Shown here: piece after piece, positions 30,742 through 60,067 of the stretch
Position numbering within the stretch: position 1 is the first letter of the stretch
Layout: every line of letters starts with the position of its first letter
Origin: Methanobrevibacter ruminantium M1
GTDB lineage: Archaea; Methanobacteriota; Methanobacteria; Methanobacteriales; Methanobacteriaceae
Assembly: GCF_000024185.1 (NCBI RefSeq)
Contig: NC_013790.1
Coordinates: 682,001 to 746,000, forward strand
Reading direction: 5' to 3'
Length of the DNA stretch: 64,000 nucleotides
Program-made: the position numbers and the translations under genes
Notes under the pieces: model-generated
Told to the model about the DNA's origin: nothing
What the model saw: the letters and a program-made list of their open reading frames with translations, nothing else
The model's database searches: none

Positions 30742-32250
30742 TTAGATGATATTTACTGCATGAGGAATCTTGGATTTAATTGCATTATGGATTTTAGGAA
30801 TTGTAGTGGTTACAATAGATTCCTTAGCAATCATTCCAGCTCCCTTATCATCTGCATGGCCTCTGATGATAGTTGCATTCAATTCCTCTTGAAGATTGTC
30901 TACGCTGACTTTCTCTACCCATGGGTTGCTGTCAGTGATTATTATCTCATCGATTCCTTTCTTATCCAGCTCTTTTGCAACAAGCCATGAAACGAATCTT
31001 CCTCCATGCAATGAAACTGAATTGCCATTTACGCTATCAGCTATTTCCTCTAAGGTTTTTGGAAGATACATTTCCTTATACATTTTAGAGTTTTGTATTG
31101 TAGCCCAATGGGCGTCTCCAATTGCAAATGATCCGATTGTCTTAGGATAGATGTTTTCAGGTCCTGCAAGCTTGACTGCATGGGTCAATGCCAATAGCTC
31201 TTCTCTTTGGACAGGAACTCTTGTTGGGCCTGCACTTATTTCCTCATTCATGATCTTGATTACTCTTGGGAGGCCGAACTTGCCTCTTCTTGCAGTTCCA
31301 GGCTCGAAACCGCACATGTATCCGTGATGGTTTTTAGGAAAACCGGTAATTATAACATTTAGTCCGGATCTAAGCCCTGCTCTGCATTCACTTTCATATG
31401 CACCGTTTGTGGCAACAACTTTTCCAGGACATAAGACTCTGCTCATTGCAATTGTCTTAGCAAAGCTTTCGTTGGTGTTTTCGCATCTGTTGAATGGTCC
31501 CCCTTCAATTACAAATACATCAACACCCATTTCGATTGCCTTTGTAAAGCCTGTGATAAGTTCATCATATCCGTCTCCTACAAACATGATTGCTTCAAGG
31601 CCCTTTCCATATTTCTTTGCAAGGTCTGCCAAGTCTTGGGCCTCTTCAAGAGGTGCCGCATGGCCGTCATTGCATTGCTCGCTGCTTAAGTTGATTGCAA
31701 CGGAAGATGATAATTGGACCCAGGTTTCCTTATCGTCAAGCTCTGCCTTTTCCTTGTCAAGCAATCTTTCGTGGATTCTTCCTCTAGGGCATTCGGTAAA
31801 GCTTGGTCCTTGGTTGTAGCAGTCTCCTCCGCATCCTACAATATGCTTTGGGAATCTCATGGCACCGTATTTTCCAAAGTGGTCAAGGTCCAGTGGAACA
31901 TCTGTGATATTGTAGACCTCTTCCATTATTTCCACACCTCTTTGGCCATATTTCTCTGCAATGTCTGAGAACGCATATGCGCATATGTGTATAGGAGCAC
32001 CGATCATGTTTGCAAGCATGCAGTTGCCGAAGAGATCCATCTTTTCCAAATCTGATGCACAGGTTCCAACCACCACTTCAGTTAAGTCACAGCCGATCGG
32101 GAACTTCTTGAATCTTGTTCCAAGTTTCATGGTGTCTTCAAAGCTTAAATCGGATATTGCATCTACAACAGAGATTACATCTTTTTTGCTTTTAGCTAAT
32201 TCCAAAGCACTTTCATCACTATTAATTGATTCCTTAATAAGTTCGTACAT
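30742..32250 (-). CDS. hcgG: FeGP-cofactor biosynthesis protein HcgG (HmdC)
   Basis: About 502 residues; part of the seven-protein set for the iron-guanylylpyridinol cofactor of [Fe]-hydrogenase. Two Cys-rich stretches (HIVGCGGDCYNQGPSFTECPRGR and TNESFAKTIAMSRVLCPGK) and the Gly-rich LSGLNVIITGFPKNHHGYMCG-type region match HmdC-type proteins, which occur only where hmd occurs. With HcgA it is thought to build the Fe-acyl part. Divergent from hmd over a 575-base shared promoter region. ATG 32250 (GAGGG 6 bases upstream) is preferred over ATG 32262. Confidence 0.85.
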   Translation of the reverse strand: MYELIKESINSDESALELAKSKKDVISVVDAISDLSFEDTMKLGTRFKKFPIGCDLTEVVVGTCASDLEKMDLFGNCMLANMIGAPIHICAYAFSDIAEKYGQRGVEIMEEVYNITDVPLDLDHFGKYGAMRFPKHIVGCGGDCYNQGPSFTECPRGRIHERLLDKEKAELDDKETWVQLSSSVAINLSSEQCNDGHAAPLEEAQDLADLAKKYGKGLEAIMFVGDGYDELITGFTKAIEMGVDVFVIEGGPFNRCENTNESFAKTIAMSRVLCPGKVVATNGAYESECRAGLRSGLNVIITGFPKNHHGYMCGFEPGTARRGKFGLPRVIKIMNEEISAGPTRVPVQREELLALTHAVKLAGPENIYPKTIGSFAIGDAHWATIQNSKMYKEMYLPKTLEEIADSVNGNSVSLHGGRFVSWLVAKELDKKGIDEIIITDSNPWVEKVSVDNLQEELNATIIRGHADDKGAGMIAKESIVTTTIPKIHNAIKSKIPHAVNII

Positions 32251-32825
32251 TCTTTCCCTCATCTATAAAGATTTATATTAAATATTTTTAAGTAATTTAT
32301 TTGGAAAAAGTTTCATTTCCAATATGGGGCAATCCCCTTTTCTAATTATTACAAAAATATAATAAATTTATAAAAAAGTAATACTTTTATATAATATTTT
32401 ATTACTGTACTATTTTCTTATTTAATCTTTATATGATATAAAAATTTTGCTATTTTTTGGCTCATTTTTTTACAATTCATTTGTAGTATTACTTTTAGTT
32501 CTATATGTTACAAAGAGTAATAAATATCTTTAAATATGTATTACAATAAAGTTATTATTACTACTTTGTTATTTAGTATTACTTACTTGAAAAAAACTTC
32601 ATTTAAGTATTACTTAATTTCCTTAAATTTATAAAAATGGCTTAAATGTCTTATTTAAGGATTTAATGGGGTTTTATCAAAACTTTAAAATTCATTAATT
32701 CTTGAGGGTTTCAATATTTGCCTAAACTTAATGAAGTTTTATGATTATTGAACCTCAGGGATGTATATAGAAAATTTGTTATATGCTCTTAACAAGGTGG
32801 TAAAATATAAAGGAGATATTTTAAA
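32251..32825. promoter_or_regulatory. hcgG/hmd divergent control region with GTATTAC boxes
   Basis: 575 bases. Palindromic boxes built on AAGTA-T-TACTT: AAAAGTAATACTTTT at 32374-32388, AGTATTACT at 32485-32493, GTATTAC at 32538, 32576 and 32607 (the last inside TAAGTATTACTTA), plus a weak GAGTAAT near 32517. Centres lie about 31, 38 or 52 bases apart. For hmd, a TATA-like GTATATAG near 32764 and AAGGAGATAT before the ATG are visible. Confidence 0.6.
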
Positions 32826-33842
32826 ATGAAAGTAGCAATTTTAGGTGCTGGCTGTTACAGAACTCACGCAGCTAGTGGAATTACAAATTTTTCTAGAGCT
32901 TGTGAAGTAGCAGACGCAACCGGTAAAGAAAACATTTCAATGACCCACTCTACCATTGAAATGGGTGCAGAACTTTTAGAATTAGCAGGTGTAGACGAAG
33001 TTGTAGTAGCTGACCCTGTATTTGACGGCGAATTCACTGTAGTAGAAGACTTTGACTATGCAGAAGTAATCGCAGCTCACAAAGCTGGAAACCCTGAAGA
33101 TGTAATGCCTGCAATCAGAGCAAAAGTAGGAGAATTAGCTGAAACCGTACCTAAACCAGCTAACGGTGCTATCCACTTCACTCACCCTGAAGACTTAGGA
33201 ATGAAATGTACTACTGACGACCGTGAAGCAGTAGCTGACGCTGACTGGATCATGACCTGGTTACCAGAAGGAGGTATGCAACCTGCTATCATCGAAAAAT
33301 TCGCTGATGTAATTAAAGACGGTGCAATCGTAACCTCCGCATGTACCATCCCAACTCCTGGATTAAACCAAATCTTTGAAGACTTAGGCAAAAACGTAAA
33401 CGTAGCTTCCTACCACCCAGGTGCAGTACCTGAAATGAAAGGTCAAGTTTACATTGCAGAAGGATTTGCTGACCAAGCAGCTATCGACACCTTAAAAGAC
33501 TTAGGTGCAAAAGCAAGAGGTTCCGCATTCACCTTACCTGCAAACATGGTAGGTCCTGTATGTGATATGTGTTCCGCAGTAACTGCAATTACCTACGCTG
33601 GTCTTTTATCCTACAGAGACACTGTAACTCAAATCTTAGGTGCACCAGCAGGATTCGCTCAAATGATGGCTAACGAAGCATTAACCAACGTAACCAAATT
33701 AATGGCTGATGAAGGCATTGACAAAATGGATGATGCTTTAAACCCTGGCGCATTATTAGGTACTGCTGACTCAATGAACTTCGGTCCATTATCTGAAATT
33801 GTACCTACTATCTTAGAATCTTTAGAAAAAAGATCCAAATAG
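32826..33842 (+). CDS. hmd: [Fe]-hydrogenase, H2-forming methylene-H4MPT dehydrogenase
   Basis: Nickel-free hydrogenase that reduces methenyl-H4MPT with H2 in the CO2-to-methane pathway. A 338-residue protein, close to the Methanothermobacter enzyme over its whole length: Rossmann start KVAILGAGCYRTHAASG, His14 (active site), the iron ligand Cys173 in TSACTIPT (Cys176 in other species), and SYHPGAVPEMKGQVYIAEG. Codon bias (GGT, GAC, ATC, AAC) marks it as highly expressed. Known to rise under nickel limitation in related methanogens. The gene itself is intact. Confidence 0.98.
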   Translation: MKVAILGAGCYRTHAASGITNFSRACEVADATGKENISMTHSTIEMGAELLELAGVDEVVVADPVFDGEFTVVEDFDYAEVIAAHKAGNPEDVMPAIRAKVGELAETVPKPANGAIHFTHPEDLGMKCTTDDREAVADADWIMTWLPEGGMQPAIIEKFADVIKDGAIVTSACTIPTPGLNQIFEDLGKNVNVASYHPGAVPEMKGQVYIAEGFADQAAIDTLKDLGAKARGSAFTLPANMVGPVCDMCSAVTAITYAGLLSYRDTVTQILGAPAGFAQMMANEALTNVTKLMADEGIDKMDDALNPGALLGTADSMNFGPLSEIVPTILESLEKRSK

Positions 33843-34518: not shown

Positions 34519-35520
34519 TTGATAGAATCTATCTTGGAAAAAGCTAAAAATAGAGAAAAGTTAAGCAGAAATGAATTGATCCAATTATTTGAAATAGATG
34601 ATGAGGAAACTTTAAAGGAATTATGTAAAATAGCTTGCGATATTCGCAATGAATGTTCTGATGTAATTAAATTAACATCCACTATTCATCTTACAAATAA
34701 ATGTCAAGTTCAACCTAGATGCAAATATTGCGGATTTGCTGCTAAGACTTCATCCATTGGATATTATGACGCTTTTTATAAGTCTGATGAAGAGATACGC
34801 CAAGCTGCAATGTGTGTTGAAAGATCAGGCATTCCTAGAATAAGCTGTTCTGGAGGACATGGATATAAAGGAAAGCAAGCAGTAAATGCTGCAAAGATAG
34901 TTAAGGGAGAAACCTCCCTTGAAATATTGGTTAATGTCGGCGCTGATTTAACTCAAGAAGCAGTAGACGAATTGAAGAAATATGATGCTGATACTGTTTG
35001 CTGCAATTTAGAGACAACCAATGAAGACGTTTTTAACTTTGTAAAGCCTGGTGAAAAGTTATCTGACCGCATAAACATATGCAGAATGGTATCAGATGCA
35101 GGTATTGGATTGTCTTCCGGTCTGTTGATTGGCATTGGAGAATCCTATGAGGATAGGGTTGACCATCTATTATTCCTTGGAAGCTTTGAGAGCTTAGAGG
35201 AGATTCCTATAATGGGATTTAATCCATATGTTGACACCCCTATGGAAAATCACCCTCCTTGCTCTATCGAAGAGCAGCTAAAGACAATTGCAATTACAAG
35301 GATCATGTATCCTCGCATTAGAATAACTGTTCCAACACCTACAATCGGTCCTGAGAATGTTGAGCTTCCTTTGATGGCTGGAGCAAACAATTTGGCAACA
35401 GTAATCCCTGAAGACTATCCTTTAGTCGTTAAGGGAGTTGGAAATCCAGAATACGGCAATTTGCATGAGGTGATTTCAGTAGTTGAGAATTTGGGCCTTG
35501 AGGTTCAGCTTCATGCTTAA
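34519..35520 (+). CDS. hcgA: radical SAM protein HcgA (HmdB)
   Basis: A 333-residue radical SAM enzyme of the FeGP cofactor pathway. The cluster motif is the unusual C-x5-C-x2-C (CQVQPRCKYC, nt about 34705-34733) that sets HcgA/HmdB apart from the normal C-x3-C-x2-C of BioB/HydE relatives. LLIGIGESYEDRVDHLLFL and PYVDTPMENHPP match the BioB-like barrel. TTG start, with AGGGTG 5 bases upstream; no ATG is available at the N-terminus. First gene of a tight same-strand row hcgA-F. Confidence 0.9.
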   Translation: MIESILEKAKNREKLSRNELIQLFEIDDEETLKELCKIACDIRNECSDVIKLTSTIHLTNKCQVQPRCKYCGFAAKTSSIGYYDAFYKSDEEIRQAAMCVERSGIPRISCSGGHGYKGKQAVNAAKIVKGETSLEILVNVGADLTQEAVDELKKYDADTVCCNLETTNEDVFNFVKPGEKLSDRINICRMVSDAGIGLSSGLLIGIGESYEDRVDHLLFLGSFESLEEIPIMGFNPYVDTPMENHPPCSIEEQLKTIAITRIMYPRIRITVPTPTIGPENVELPLMAGANNLATVIPEDYPLVVKGVGNPEYGNLHEVISVVENLGLEVQLHA

Positions 35521-35734: not shown

Positions 35735-36208
35735 ATGGCCTTTGAGGAAAGTATTAGAAAAGCTTCTATCCAATCTTATGAAGGAACACGTAAGGGAGAC
35801 ACTATTGAAGAGATTGAAGCAATCCAGAACTATATTCGAAATGCAAAGATTGTTGTTCCTAATAAGAATGGCATAAAAGTAGAGGTAATAAATGAGGTTC
35901 TAGCTAAATTCAATATTCCTCCTGCTGAATATCTGCAGGTAAATACTAATTATGCTGATTTCAGTAGAATGCCTGCAATTGCAAAGGCTATGATAGCTGT
36001 AGATCAGTCAGATGCAGATTTGGTCATTGCAAGAGGTCGTTTAGGAATCCCTGGCTCTGGTTCTTTTTTGGTTTTTATGGACAGCAAATCCAGGATTTTA
36101 ACTGCAGCCACTTCCCCATCCCATATAATTCATAATCAGCCACTCGAAAAGACTGTTTATAAGGAGACATTAGAGGCGTTAAAGAAAGTAGGCTTTAAAG
36201 AAGAATGA
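35735..36208 (+). CDS. hcgB: guanylyltransferase HcgB
   Basis: Joins GMP from GTP to the pyridinol precursor of the FeGP cofactor. About 157 residues with the RGRLGIPGSGSFLVFMD nucleotide-binding loop and the ending TYKETLEALKKVGFKEE, as in HcgB. ATG 35735 follows GGTGGT; the upstream in-frame ATT/TTG would add an unlikely hydrophobic lead. Located in the hcg row after a 214-base gap. Confidence 0.87.
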   Translation: MAFEESIRKASIQSYEGTRKGDTIEEIEAIQNYIRNAKIVVPNKNGIKVEVINEVLAKFNIPPAEYLQVNTNYADFSRMPAIAKAMIAVDQSDADLVIARGRLGIPGSGSFLVFMDSKSRILTAATSPSHIIHNQPLEKTVYKETLEALKKVGFKEE

Positions 36209-36277: not shown

Positions 36278-37126
36278 ATGAATAATCAAGATTACGATAC
36301 TGGAATAAGTTCAGAGGTTTTTACAGTCAAATCAAATATCAAATTAATAGATATTTTTAATTTGATTTTAGAAAAGAAAGCAAGGGCTGTTATGGACTTA
36401 TTTGATAGTCTAACAAACAAGGAAACAATACATAATGAAAGTTCCATCATAATTATTGGAACCTATTTTACAGGAATAGCCATTGCGAAATATTTATCAT
36501 ATAATGGTTTTAAAAATATTACTATAGTTGATATTTATCCCCATTTGGAAGGTTTTATTGATTCTAACTTGGGAGATCCTATTGATGTGAATAAATCTTC
36601 TAAAGGTAAATTTAAAGAGAATATAGAATTTTCATCAGATTTGGGCTTAATAAGAAGTGCTGATGTTGTAATTGACACTACTTGATTGGGAGGAATAGAT
36701 GAAAGCCAATCAGAATCAATTTACACAAAGGTCTTTTTAATTGAAGACCCTATAGCTGAAGACAATGATGACTTATTGAAGAATAAAAACAATATCTATT
36801 CTCGCATAAGCCTGGTGAATTCATATAATAAGTTCATTCTTAAAACAGAAGGTTTAAACACAAAAACCTCTGGAACCATGACTTTGACAATAGATATCTT
36901 AAGGCAATCAATGAATGAGATATTGTCAAGGGAAGGAGTTCTTTACTGTTCATCTGAAATGACCTTCTTTGAAGAGATTGTTTTTAAGGAAAATGACTTG
37001 GATAAGTTCTTTGAATTAATAGGGTCTCCTGTAATTAAAGTTTCAACTATTGCTCCATTTGACTGTGAGGAAATTATTAAATGCTTTATTGACAAAATCT
37101 ATTCTGAAATCTTGATTAGGTGGTAA
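36278..37126 (+). pseudogene. hcgC: SAM-dependent pyridinol methyltransferase HcgC with in-frame TGA
   Basis: A 282-codon frame interrupted once, at 36683-36685. Before the stop it reads ...LIRSADVVIDTT and after it LGGIDESQSESIYTK, so TGA replaces a Gly codon (GGA to TGA is one change) in the conserved DTTGLGG loop of the Rossmann-like SAM site. Both halves keep HcgC sequence, normal codon use and no other lesion. HcgC methylates C3 of the guanylylpyridinol ring. Translation past the stop could only restart at TTG 36686, without a good ribosome binding site. Either a recent nonsense mutation, an error in the sequence, or readthrough. Confidence 0.85.
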
Positions 37127-37190
37127 ATTTTACTTGTTGATTTTTATTTCTTGATTAGGTGGTAATTTTTTACTGATTGATTTTATATCG
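37105..37190. repeat. 39-bp tandem duplication at hcgC 3' end
   Basis: CTTGATTAGGTGGTAA plus following bases occurs at 37111 (the last hcgC codons and stop) and at 37150. The copies share most of 39 bases, so the end of hcgC was duplicated into the spacer before hcgD. Confidence 0.75.
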
Positions 37191-37203: not shown

Positions 37204-37932
37204 ATGTATGCAAATGATATTTTTAATATTATAGATGAATTGGTGCCTCGTAAATTGGCATTGAAGAATGATAAATTCGGCTATTTTGGAAAGACTTTCG
37301 ACAATTTCGATATTAAAAATATTAAAGTCATATTAGATTTATTGCCAGAAGATGACTTGAAATTTGATAAGGGTGATTTGGTTATTTCCCATCATCCTCC
37401 TCTCTTTATGCCAAAGACTCCAACCTATGTTGTCCATTCCAATTGGGATATTGTTCAGGGAGGGGCAAATGACGCTTTGGCTTATTATTTGGGTTTAAAG
37501 CCTATTTCTATTTTTCACAAGCAGACAGGCATAGGCCGAATCTGCTCTTCAACAAAGACATTGGATCAGTTCTTAGCCTTGGTTTGCTATAAGTTCGGTC
37601 CTGAAAATGTTCGATTGGTTCATGATGGCGACTTTGATAAGATGCTTAGGAAAATTGCTATAGTTTCCGGATTTGGCTTAAGCAATAAGGAATTTATTAA
37701 ATTGGCTAAGGACAGGTCCGTAGATGCATTTTTATCTGGTGACTTGAACCATTCAAATGCGATTTATGCGAAAAAGCTAGGAATTACTTTAATCGATGTT
37801 TCTCATCATATTATTGAGATTCCGGGGCTATTTGCCTTAAAGGAATTGCTAAGACGAAATGAGGATATTACTGTTCCTGTAGAAATGATTGACAATGGAG
37901 TTCCTTGGAAATATATTTCTGCTGATTTTTAG
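37204..37932 (+). CDS. hcgD: Nif3-like protein HcgD
   Basis: A 242-residue NIF3/YbgI-fold protein, thought to deliver iron for the FeGP cofactor. The fold's metal-binding signatures are visible: ISHHPPLFM in the N-terminal half, GDLNHSNAIYAKKLGITLIDVSHH near the end. ATG 37204 follows AGGTGTTAAA; the upstream start at 37177 would read through that site. Located between hcgC and hcgE. Confidence 0.88.
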   Translation: MYANDIFNIIDELVPRKLALKNDKFGYFGKTFDNFDIKNIKVILDLLPEDDLKFDKGDLVISHHPPLFMPKTPTYVVHSNWDIVQGGANDALAYYLGLKPISIFHKQTGIGRICSSTKTLDQFLALVCYKFGPENVRLVHDGDFDKMLRKIAIVSGFGLSNKEFIKLAKDRSVDAFLSGDLNHSNAIYAKKLGITLIDVSHHIIEIPGLFALKELLRRNEDITVPVEMIDNGVPWKYISADF

Positions 37933-38139: not shown

Positions 38140-38784
38140 ATGATTCAAGAAATGGAAAATAGTTTAATTCCAAAAGGAAGTATTGATTTAGTGGGATTTG
38201 GAAGATTAGGTTTAAGAACAGGAATCAATCTTATACAGGTTCACAGAGGAGGTCCAGCTAAGATAACAGTTATTGATGGACAGAAGATCTCTGAATCTGA
38301 TATAATATTTCTATTGAAAGGAGCTAAAGTCGGCACTTATAAATCTGACTTTTTAAAGGAAATTTCCACCCATTCAAAGGATTTTAGAGAAGTTGTTTCA
38401 ATCACTGAAGACATAACAGAGGATAATATTGATTTAATCACTGGAGATGTGGTTGTAATTGAAATAGCTGGAGGAAATACCGTACCTACTGCAGCAAAGA
38501 TAATTAAAAAAGCTCATGAAAACGGCTCAAAAACAATTGGAACTGCAGGTATATTCGGAATTGGGGATGAAGAGATTGTTGTAGCAGACATCTCTGAATT
38601 TGATGATTCCAATCCCGCTATTGAAGAGTTAAGAAAAGAAGGAATCCTTGATAACCATTTAGTTATAAGCACTAATAGGTTTATTAGGGATGGAATTCCA
38701 ATAACTCCTTATGTATTGGATGATATTGCTAATATCATTACAAGAGAGGCCTTAAAATTACTTATTGAAAAGAATAATGAATAG
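38140..38784 (+). CDS. hcgE: E1-like adenylyltransferase HcgE
   Basis: A 214-residue ThiF/E1-fold protein that activates the carboxyl group of the guanylylpyridinol with ATP. The Rossmann start IDLVGFGRLGLRTGINL and the ITVIDGQKISESDI strand with acidic end match; no Cys pair for zinc is seen. GGTG precedes the ATG by about 6 bases. 207 bases follow the end of hcgD. Confidence 0.87.
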   Translation: MIQEMENSLIPKGSIDLVGFGRLGLRTGINLIQVHRGGPAKITVIDGQKISESDIIFLLKGAKVGTYKSDFLKEISTHSKDFREVVSITEDITEDNIDLITGDVVVIEIAGGNTVPTAAKIIKKAHENGSKTIGTAGIFGIGDEEIVVADISEFDDSNPAIEELRKEGILDNHLVISTNRFIRDGIPITPYVLDDIANIITREALKLLIEKNNE

Positions 38785-38847: not shown

Positions 38848-39456
38848 ATGATTACTATCGCAACTGCAGAATGTTTTACACATGGGATTTTAGCTCGTGA
38901 AATACATGCTCTCGCTCAGGATTATGATGATATTTTTGCATCTTCCTATTGGGGTTTGGTTAACAAAGTCCAAAAGGATTGCATCAAGGATGCAATTCTT
39001 GAAGATAAATGTTCCATTTTTGATTTAAGGGATTTGAGTGTTAGCTGTGGATTGTTCATTCCTACATTGGATGCTGTAAAATCTGTTTTAAAGATAGAAA
39101 ATCCGCTAGAGCCTTTGACACTTATTGATGGAATTAAGGTTTATGACGATGATGGCGATAGGGAAATGGCTATATTGATGGCAGAGGCTGCTAAAAAGGT
39201 ATCTGGTTCTGATATTGGAATAGGCACAACTGCAGGGATTGGATATGGTGGCATAGCTATTGTCGATGATGATATTGTCATTAGCACAAGTTCTGATGTT
39301 TATGCTGATTTGGTAAATGTGGATTCCGATGATCTTTATATGCGTCAAAGAAGTGGAATAGAAAAGACTTTAAAAATATTGATTTATTATTTAAACGATA
39401 ATTTAGACATTATTAATCAAATGAATAATGTGAAAATATATAATAAATCAGAATAA
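38848..39456 (+). CDS. hcgF: FeGP-cofactor thioester-forming protein HcgF
   Basis: A 202-residue protein, last gene of the hcg row. The N-terminus MITIATAECFTHG holds Cys9, which in homologues forms a thioester with the adenylated guanylylpyridinol carboxylate. The Gly-rich GTTAGIGYGGIAIVDDD segment is conserved. AAAGGTG precedes the ATG. The role is inferred from family and context. Confidence 0.87.
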   Translation: MITIATAECFTHGILAREIHALAQDYDDIFASSYWGLVNKVQKDCIKDAILEDKCSIFDLRDLSVSCGLFIPTLDAVKSVLKIENPLEPLTLIDGIKVYDDDGDREMAILMAEAAKKVSGSDIGIGTTAGIGYGGIAIVDDDIVISTSSDVYADLVNVDSDDLYMRQRSGIEKTLKILIYYLNDNLDIINQMNNVKIYNKSE

Positions 39457-57537: not shown

Positions 57538-58686
57538 ATGGCAAAAGAAATTATGACAACAAATAGAGCAGTTGCAGAAGCTGTAAAGTTAGCAAAACCA
57601 CAAGTTGTTCCTGTTTACCCTATTACTCCTCAAACTACAATATCCGAATACCTTGCACAGTTTGTTGCAGACGGCGATTTGGATGCTGAGTATATTAGAG
57701 TTGAATCTGAACACAGTGCGATTAGTGCTACTTTAGGAGCTTCCGAAGCGGGAGTAAGAGTATTCACCGCTACTTCATCTCAAGGATTAATGCTTATGCA
57801 TGAGATATTGTTTGCAGCTGCAGGTATGAGAGCTCCAATAGTAATGGCAGATGCAAACAGGGCAATTTCTGCTCCATTAAACATTTGGAACGATCAACAA
57901 GACTCCATCGCACAAAGGGATGCAGGATGGATACAGCTTTATGTGGAAAATGCTCAAGAGGCATTCGACACTGTGCTTCAAGCATATAGAATTGCAGAGC
58001 ATGAAGAGGTCATGCTTCCAGTAATGGTATGTTTAGACGGATTTATTTTAACACACACTGTCGAGCCAGTAGATTTATTGGAACAAGCTGATGTGGATAC
58101 ATTCCTCGAACCATACGTACCTAAGTTTGCATTTTTAGACCCTGAAAAACCAATGTCATTAGGTAACTTTGCAGACCCTGAATATTATACAGAAGCAAGA
58201 CATGACATGCAAGTGGCTATGGACAAGTCCATGGATGTAATCAAGGAAGTAGGTGCGGAATTCGGTGAAAAATTCGGAAGGACCTACGGCTTGACTGAAC
58301 CTTACCTTTGTGACGATGCAGAGATCATATTGGTCTGTATGGGTTCAATGGCAAGTACAGTAAGATATGTGGTAGATAATTTAAGAGAAAAAGGCGAAAA
58401 AGTAGGTCTCTTAAAAATAAGGGCTTACAGACCATTCCCATTCGAGGAAATTGACGAAATTGTCAAAAATGCTGATAAATTAGCTGTGCTTGACAAGAAC
58501 TTCTCATTTGGTATTGGAGGAGCGCTTTTTGCAGACTTGAAAGCCAAATGCCACAAGGAAACCTATGGTTTCATTTTAGGATTAGGTGGAAGAGACGTAA
58601 TTCCTGAATACATTGAAGAAGCTGTCGAATTAACTAAAAATCCAGTAAAAGAAGTTACTTGGTTAGGCTTAAAGGAGGATGAATAA
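57538..58686 (+). CDS. porA: pyruvate:ferredoxin oxidoreductase alpha subunit
   Basis: A 382-residue alpha subunit. The start [32 protein letters not shown] and the [29 protein letters not shown] core are diagnostic. The GDVGxxK-like end region is normal. GGAG stands before the ATG. Third gene of the operon. Confidence 0.96.
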
Positions 58687-58687
58687 T

Positions 58688-59554
58688 ATGGAATTTCCTG
58701 AAGAAGAATTATTGGCACCAGGTCACAGAGGCTGTGCTGGTTGCGGAGCAGCTATCGCTGTAAGACTTGCTCTTAAGGCATTAGGCAAGAATACTGTGGT
58801 TGCTTGTGCAACTGGTTGTTTGGATGTTATGACATCCCCTTATCCTGAAACAGCATGGGAAGTCCCATGGATTCATGTTGCTTTTGAAAATGCAGGGGCA
58901 GTGGCTTCCGGTGTGGAAAGAGCATTGAAAGCTCAAGGAAAGGAAGATGTAAATGTTGTTGCTTTCGGTGGTGACGGAGGTACTGCAGATATTGGTATCC
59001 AATCATTATCCGGTGCAATGGAAAGAGGTCACGACTTAACTTATATCTGTTACGATAACGAAGCTTATATGAATACAGGTATTCAAAGAAGCGGAGCTAC
59101 ACCTTATGGTGCATCAACAACCACTTCACCAGCAGGTAAGCAAAGCTTCGGTGAAGACAAGCCTAAGAAGAACATGGCTTTCATTATGGCAGCTCATGGA
59201 ATTCCATATGTGGCTACTGCATCAATTTCCTATCCTGAAGACTTTATGAAAAAGGTTAAAAAGGCAGCTGAAACCAAAGGTCCAGCTTACATTCACTTGC
59301 AACAGCCATGTACCACTGGATGGGGATTCAAGCCTGAGCAAACCATTCAATTAGGCAGACTTGCTGTTGAAACCGGTGCTTGGGGATTATTTGAAATTGA
59401 AAACGGTGAATTCAGAGTGACTTACAGGCCTCAAGAAAGAAAACCTGTTAAGGAATACTTATCCGCTCAAAAAAGATTCAAACATCTTGATGATGAACAA
59501 ATTGCAATTATACAAGAATTCGTTGACAACCAATGTGAAGAATTAGGTATCTAA
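58688..59554 (+). CDS. porB: pyruvate:ferredoxin oxidoreductase beta (TPP) subunit
   Basis: A 288-residue TPP-binding subunit. [22 protein letters not shown] carries the N-terminal Cys pair, and [39 protein letters not shown] is the TPP/Mg motif. ATG 58688 is preferred: GGAGG lies 9 bases upstream, while ATG 58679 would touch it. Starts 1 base after the porA stop. Confidence 0.96.
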
Positions 59555-59566
59555 GGAGGGTCTCTA

Positions 59567-60067
59567 TTGGAGAAATTAATAGTAGATAATGAATTATGTG
59601 ATGGATGCCAGGATTGTGAAAAAGCATGTGCAGGAGTCCATGGAGTTCCTAGAATCACTATTCATGAATTAGACGGTTCTTATTTCCCTATTCGTTGTCA
59701 ACAATGTGAGGACGCTCCTTGTGAAATCATCTGTCCAACCGGTGCAATGAGCAATCTGGGAGTGGATGTTACCAAGTGCATAGCCTGCGGATTCTGTGCA
59801 ATGGCATGTCCTTTCGGTGCAATCAGCATTCAATACAGCAACGCTCATAAGTGCAATCACTGTGCAGATAGAGAGGAAGGTCCTGCATGTGTTCGCGCCT
59901 GTTCCAAAAGGGCAATTGCAGTCCATGACATTGCAAATGTCATCAAAAGGAAACAAAGGGAACACATTGAAAAGATGTATGGCTTAGACAAGCCTGCTAA
60001 AAAGAAAGGTCTTCTCAGTGTAATTACAACTGATACAAGGGCTAGAAAGCCATTGGATGGAGAATAG
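59567..60067 (+). CDS. porE: por-associated polyferredoxin PorE
   Basis: A 166-residue protein with four Cys-cluster motifs (CDGCQDCEKACAGVHG, CQQCEDAPCEIICP, CIACGFCAMACP, CNHCADREEGPACVRACSK), similar to the PorE electron-transfer protein of methanogens. TTG start, with GGAGGG 8 bases upstream. Needed for pyruvate synthesis in Methanococcus. Confidence 0.9.
   Translation: MEKLIVDNELCDGCQDCEKACAGVHGVPRITIHELDGSYFPIRCQQCEDAPCEIICPTGAMSNLGVDVTKCIACGFCAMACPFGAISIQYSNAHKCNHCADREEGPACVRACSKRAIAVHDIANVIKRKQREHIEKMYGLDKPAKKKGLLSVITTDTRARKPLDGE

Follow-up and report, generated by a model that had tools for sequence, protein, structure and literature searches.

What does a single stop codon mean inside one gene of an otherwise intact cluster for the nickel-free [Fe]-hydrogenase Hmd and its cofactor? 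The window analysed here is a stretch of 64,000 nucleotides (682001-746000) of the single-contig genome of Methanobrevibacter ruminantium M1 (2,937,203 bp), and codon 136 of its hcgC gene is an in-frame TGA (36683-36685, + strand; positions are those of the window). An ATG at 36278 opens the frame upstream of the TGA, and a TAA at 37124-37126 closes the same frame downstream. Read through the TGA, the product of 282 residues covers the Pfam family HcgC (PF06690) completely (positions 1-248 of 248; 263.8 bits against a cut-off of 31.4), and its residues 9-277 align to the solved structure 5d4t; as a read-through product, M1 HcgC is thus a full-length family match like the solved proteins 5d4t and 5o4h. 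A sequence-only reading of this DNA had held that a single in-frame TGA stops HcgC at codon 136, and the frame, the Pfam match and the alignment agree in showing this to be true. M1 does not encode a single uninterrupted HcgC chain with the invariant glycine loop, and has a premature stop where its relatives carry a sense codon.

The interrupted codon sits between DTT and LGG in M1 HcgC, and the solved proteins have a glycine at the position of the stop, within DLTGLGG in MJ0489 (5d4t) and within DLTGIGG in 5o4h. In an alignment of 41 of the 83 full-length HcgC matches (M1 and 40 others, those with loci retrieved), all 40 of the other genes have a glycine codon in this column (GGT in 24, GGA in eight, GGC in seven and GGG in one). 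As GGA is the only glycine codon that is one change away from TGA, it would offer the shortest route to the stop, and the ancestral codon was probably a glycine codon, most simply GGA. The earlier statement that GGA became TGA holds in that TGA replaces a glycine; GGA itself would be the simplest origin of the TGA. The stop follows a predicted strand (residues 130-133) in a structure prediction of the read-through protein, which is poor (mean pLDDT 49.4, from 2 sequences).

HcgC was found above the cut-off in 86 of 151 genomes of the phylum, with 83 full-length matches, and only the M1 gene has an internal stop; the 82 others are without one, so that a TGA in place of the invariant glycine in the loop D-x-T-G-x-G-G is seen in M1 alone and the interruption is unique among the 151 genomes searched. 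Of the three remaining genomes, one (G067) has an assembly gap of N in the gene and two (G072 and G043) have partial matches; the gene of G067 at first looked broken, with a TGA and a TAA in its second piece, and this was traced to the N-run rather than to a lesion. Within the genus, hcgC is present in 11 of 19 genomes, and the other 10 copies are uninterrupted, with 72-78% identity to that of M1. Because conserved coding sequence lies on both sides of the stop and only one of 83 full-length genes is interrupted, the arrangement is not a chance one. A search of the M1 genome revealed no second HcgC locus. No mention of an hcgC stop in M. ruminantium was found in the literature searched (by locus tags, hcgC and hmd pseudogene), a body of text that mostly excludes subscription papers.

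The gene lies between hcgB and hcgD, an order kept in congeners with contigs long enough, and hcgG, hmd, hcgA, hcgB, hcgD, hcgE and hcgF are all uninterrupted and of full length relative to their relatives (Table 1). The start of hcgB is placed at ATG 35735, since the codon is ATG in 10 of 10 genus genomes compared (M1 counted), and hcgE is named from its place in the cluster and from its relatives, its ThiF match being below the cut-off. That hmd and the other hcg genes are intact, and that hmd has a strong codon bias, had both been proposed from the sequence and are borne out; the effective number of codons is 28.9 for hmd vs 40.6-46.8 for the seven hcg genes. The M1 RNA-seq table lists hmd as mru_0526, bioB2 as mru_0527 and a ThiF protein as mru_0532, in an order that fits the cluster (PMC5816558). 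Four locus numbers thus fall between hcgA and hcgE, where there are three genes, which suggests that hcgC is annotated as two genes in the deposited record.

Table 1. Features of the Hmd/hcg cluster and of the hcgC interruption in M. ruminantium M1 (window positions)
Feature	Position	Strand	Evidence and remarks
hcgG (Fibrillarin_2), intact	30742..32262	-	PF10113, 877.7 bits
hmd, [Fe]-hydrogenase, intact, strongly codon-biased	32826..33842	+	PF22616 and PF03201; ENC 28.9
hcgA, radical-SAM enzyme, intact	34519..35520	+	TTG start in 10/10 genus genomes compared, M1 counted
hcgB, guanylyltransferase, intact	35735..36208	+	PF11576, 236.1 bits (ORF from earlier TTG 35702)
hcgC, 5' part, 135 aa to TGA	36278..36685	+	PF06690 positions 1-105, 79.7 bits; N-terminal part of SAM-dependent pyridinol C-methyltransferase
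hcgC, 3' part, 146 aa, same frame, first codon TTG	36686..37126	+	PF06690 positions 107-248, 168.3 bits; uninterrupted
GGGAGGA, Shine-Dalgarno-like, within conserved LGG codons	36688..36694	+	After TTG; faces out-of-frame ATG 36699, 13-codon frame
hcgD (DUF34/NIF3), intact	37204..37932	+	PF01784, 118.9 bits; 242/242 aa aligned in congeners with unbroken contig
hcgE (ThiF-like), intact	38140..38784	+	ThiF 24.3 bits, below Pfam cut-off; 213-214/214 aa aligned in congeners
hcgF, intact	38848..39456	+	PF06787, 217.5 bits

The age of the stop was approached through the constraint on hcgC along the M1 branch, using a tree of hcgA, B, D, E, F and hmd sequences drawn from as many as 11 genus genomes (M1 counted). 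In a two-ratio codon model, omega was 0.15 on the M1 branch vs 0.129 elsewhere (p 0.645), and a likelihood profile rejected values for the M1 branch above about 0.29-0.30 and below about 0.08. For the two halves of the gene, the omega of this branch was 0.21 (p 0.31) upstream of the stop and 0.098 (p 0.70) downstream. At the columns that are invariant in the other 40 HcgC proteins M1 departs twice, at the stop and by a D to E change at 264, and among the aligned genes of the genus it has six departures vs two to nine for the other members. Outside the TGA, no frameshift or further lesion was found in M1 hcgC, and its constraint is not relaxed. If omega is taken as 1 after the stop, the upper limit on omega would allow neutral evolution since the stop over about one fifth of the M1 branch at the most, a bound that also assumes a tree with weak nodes (support down to 32). 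From the absence of decay, the stop would seem to be very recent, or unreal, or harmless, and all three fit the constraint data alike; for a nonsense pseudogene, constraint this intact can be reconciled with nothing but a very recent event.

Two published sources bear on whether Hmd is in use. In its passages on this enzyme, a 2011 review names M. ruminantium among the species able to synthesise active [Fe]-hydrogenase, citing a 2007 review for the activity, and gives HcgA-G as present (PMC3087415), which counts against a simple loss. In the M1 RNA-seq table, hmd has an abundance of 10.96, taken as log2 counts per million, and lauric acid raises hmd by 1.41, hcgA by 1.24 and hcgE by 1.38 log2 units (PMC5816558). 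Since hmd is strongly transcribed and rises with hcgA and hcgE, the cluster is in use at the RNA level; continued transcription of hmd and the hcg genes is hardly expected after an old loss of Hmd and is expected after a recent one.

The review statement just cited (PMC3087415), like the lack of decay in the remainder of hcgC and the 2010 vintage of the published genome, would also suit a wrong base in the consensus sequence as deposited, with an intact hcgC and normal Hmd in the living strain, an explanation that we regard as rather unlikely. Against it, no other stop-split gene was found in the 64-kb window or, in a 360 kb sample with 63 same-frame ORF pairs (21 of which are not shadows of another frame), among the 10 of these 21 candidates that were tested by Pfam for one family split by a stop, although a single error is compatible with this result. 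Substitutions, unlike homopolymer indels, are also atypical of a mix of Sanger sequencing and pyrosequencing, and this again counts against an error. The M1 genome is described as a hybrid assembly of these two kinds of data, with PCR-based gap closure and with base conflicts resolved (PMC2812497). The other ORF pair of the window that has long flanks and is split by a stop in one frame, at 58673-60067, proved to be two different genes, with TPP enzyme and ferredoxin domains.

Methanococcus and M. jannaschii are examples of the archaeal recoding of UGA for selenocysteine. In M1 hcgC, the intact and conserved frame downstream of the stop is the only observation that favours a UGA decoded on purpose, by selenocysteine or by a suppressor tRNA, as a means of regulating HcgC. 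M1 hcgC has in common with archaeal selenocysteine recoding an in-frame UGA inside a conserved gene, but differs from it in having no tRNA-Sec above threshold and no relatives with Cys or Sec at the site (PMC8211752, for the known system). The tRNA-Sec model RF01852 gave no match over its gathering score in the M1 genome (best 35.5 vs 47 bits), and no UCA anticodon occurs in the ARAGORN calls spanning the 58 RF00005 tRNA places, one intron-bearing call being doubtful. RNA folding around the stop is unremarkable (z scores of +0.20, -1.04 and +0.88), no Rfam match was found there, and at the position of codon 136 the relatives show neither a stop nor Sec or Cys (glycine in 40 of 40). TGA terminates 39 of 213 long frames in the 360 kb sample and is thus a normal stop in M1, and the lack of a further stop-split gene among the tested pairs gives no indication of a general TGA suppressor. 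According to a 2021 review, Sec and Pyl are the only demonstrated cases of readthrough in archaea (PMC8211752). Taken together, we give programmed recoding scarcely any credence. The doubtful call is an intron-bearing tRNA at 1083628-1083736 of the genome (L126, G000:C1:1083580-1083780), assigned by ARAGORN to Pro(agg); by eye, its anticodon region is without TCA.

Another way of keeping some HcgC would be ordinary leaky misreading of UGA, for instance by tRNA-Trp, or the production of two chains by termination and reinitiation at TTG 36686, which stands directly after the TGA; low levels could possibly be enough for a cofactor required in small amounts. The frame after the stop is constrained as in relatives (omega of 0.098 for the C-terminal part on the M1 branch), but equal constraint is expected from a recent stop. 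Termination-reinitiation without a Shine-Dalgarno motif is described in Haloferax (PMC6728339), and the cluster is transcribed (PMC5816558); TTG 36686 has no Shine-Dalgarno-like sequence upstream. The break falls within the loop of the invariant glycine, where misreading would presumably place a bulky residue, and the full-length matches, from 83 genomes, included no two-chain HcgC. We consider residual HcgC of this kind distinctly unlikely, and that Hmd is functional in M1 in spite of the stop, through reading of UGA by an ordinary tRNA or through a two-chain HcgC made via TTG 36686, very unlikely. If true, readthrough by an ordinary tRNA would be an archaeal case beyond Sec and Pyl (PMC8211752).

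Hmd is also lacking elsewhere in the genus. Two congeners with nearly complete genomes (G012, 96%, and G016, 99%) have neither an hmd match nor HcgC above the cut-off, and in M. arboriphilus strain AZ is described as having Hmd activity and strain DH1 as lacking hmd and hcg (PMC5467289). Thus, Hmd is a dispensable, patchy trait in Methanobrevibacter. As in M1, Hmd function in M. arboriphilus is apparently gone from one strain or species while relatives keep it; however, the entire cluster is absent from DH1 (PMC5467289), whereas in M1 a single gene is interrupted by a single base and hmd is still highly expressed. One further genome (G008) has hmd without hcgC, and here a contig end explains the absence, not a loss. 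A separate observation concerns hmd at another locus (L070, G014:C36:18500-28500), where, compared with M1, a deletion of 64 bp breaks the frame, the rest being conserved; an identical deletion is present in MAG RUG11428 (L127). This may be a second case in which the Hmd system has lost just one gene, or else a fault of MAG assembly.

The sequence-only reading had left the choice among a very recent loss, an error, readthrough, and restart at the TTG. A recent loss fits best, because there is no decay elsewhere in the gene, the pathway is dispensable with an intact mtd, and some congeners lack both hmd and hcgC; dedicated readthrough is disfavoured, and restart is possible but a weak candidate. 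We therefore think it probable that M1 has undergone a very recent nonsense loss of hcgC, perhaps in culture, which leaves Hmd without its cofactor while mtd, present and intact in M1, covers the reaction. The gene would have been inactivated when a glycine codon, GGA in the simplest case, became TGA. Translation would end after 135 residues, in the loop following a predicted Rossmann-type strand, and a fragment cut short at this place should be inactive, so that no working methyltransferase would be made. Hmd function in M. maripaludis reportedly requires seven hcg genes, to go by the title of Lie et al. 2013. HcgC methylates pyridinol 1 to 2, from which HcgB then makes 3, and in the in vitro FeGP assay described for M. 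maripaludis extract, omission of HcgC abolished Hmd activity (PMC9314073). Without 3-methylation of precursor 1, the FeGP cofactor of M1 would remain unfinished and the abundant Hmd would stay apo and inactive; Mtd, with the F420-reducing hydrogenase, would take over the methylene-H4MPT step, and the remaining cluster would have had too little time for decay. We infer that the stop is real in the cells and that no HcgC activity is left. Hmd is described as most important under nickel scarcity (PMC12350162), and because ordinary media are without such scarcity, a loss borne by culture is plausible; the stop may have arisen in the laboratory in nickel-sufficient medium, where Hmd would be least needed.

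The interruption is ordinary in kind, and is most probably a very recent nonsense loss and next most probably a base error, but either has consequences for a reference rumen methanogen that the review of 2011 counts as having Hmd and HcgA-G (PMC3087415). If the stop is real, Hmd of M1 is probably inactive, and M1 would be a poor model for Hmd and for rumen electron flow under nickel limitation; the strongly expressed hmd would then yield an apo-enzyme, and the strain would offer in vitro FeGP complementation a natural mutant affected in hcgC alone. If the stop is an error, the reference sequence needs correction, and if M1 has Hmd activity nonetheless, it would point to unexplained decoding or to a split methyltransferase.

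Two further features of the locus are noted here. First, hmd (32826-33842) differs far less between congeners than the genes around it do, fourfold sites included; identity at these sites between M1 and three congeners (G006, G002 and G007) is 84-85% for hmd and 40-63% for the hcg genes, which could reflect the strong codon bias or a recent exchange of hmd. Second, a sequence of about 37 bp around the end of hcgC (TCTTGATTAGGTGGTAA...) recurs a single time about 39 bp further on, in the space that separates hcgC from hcgD (37110-37187).
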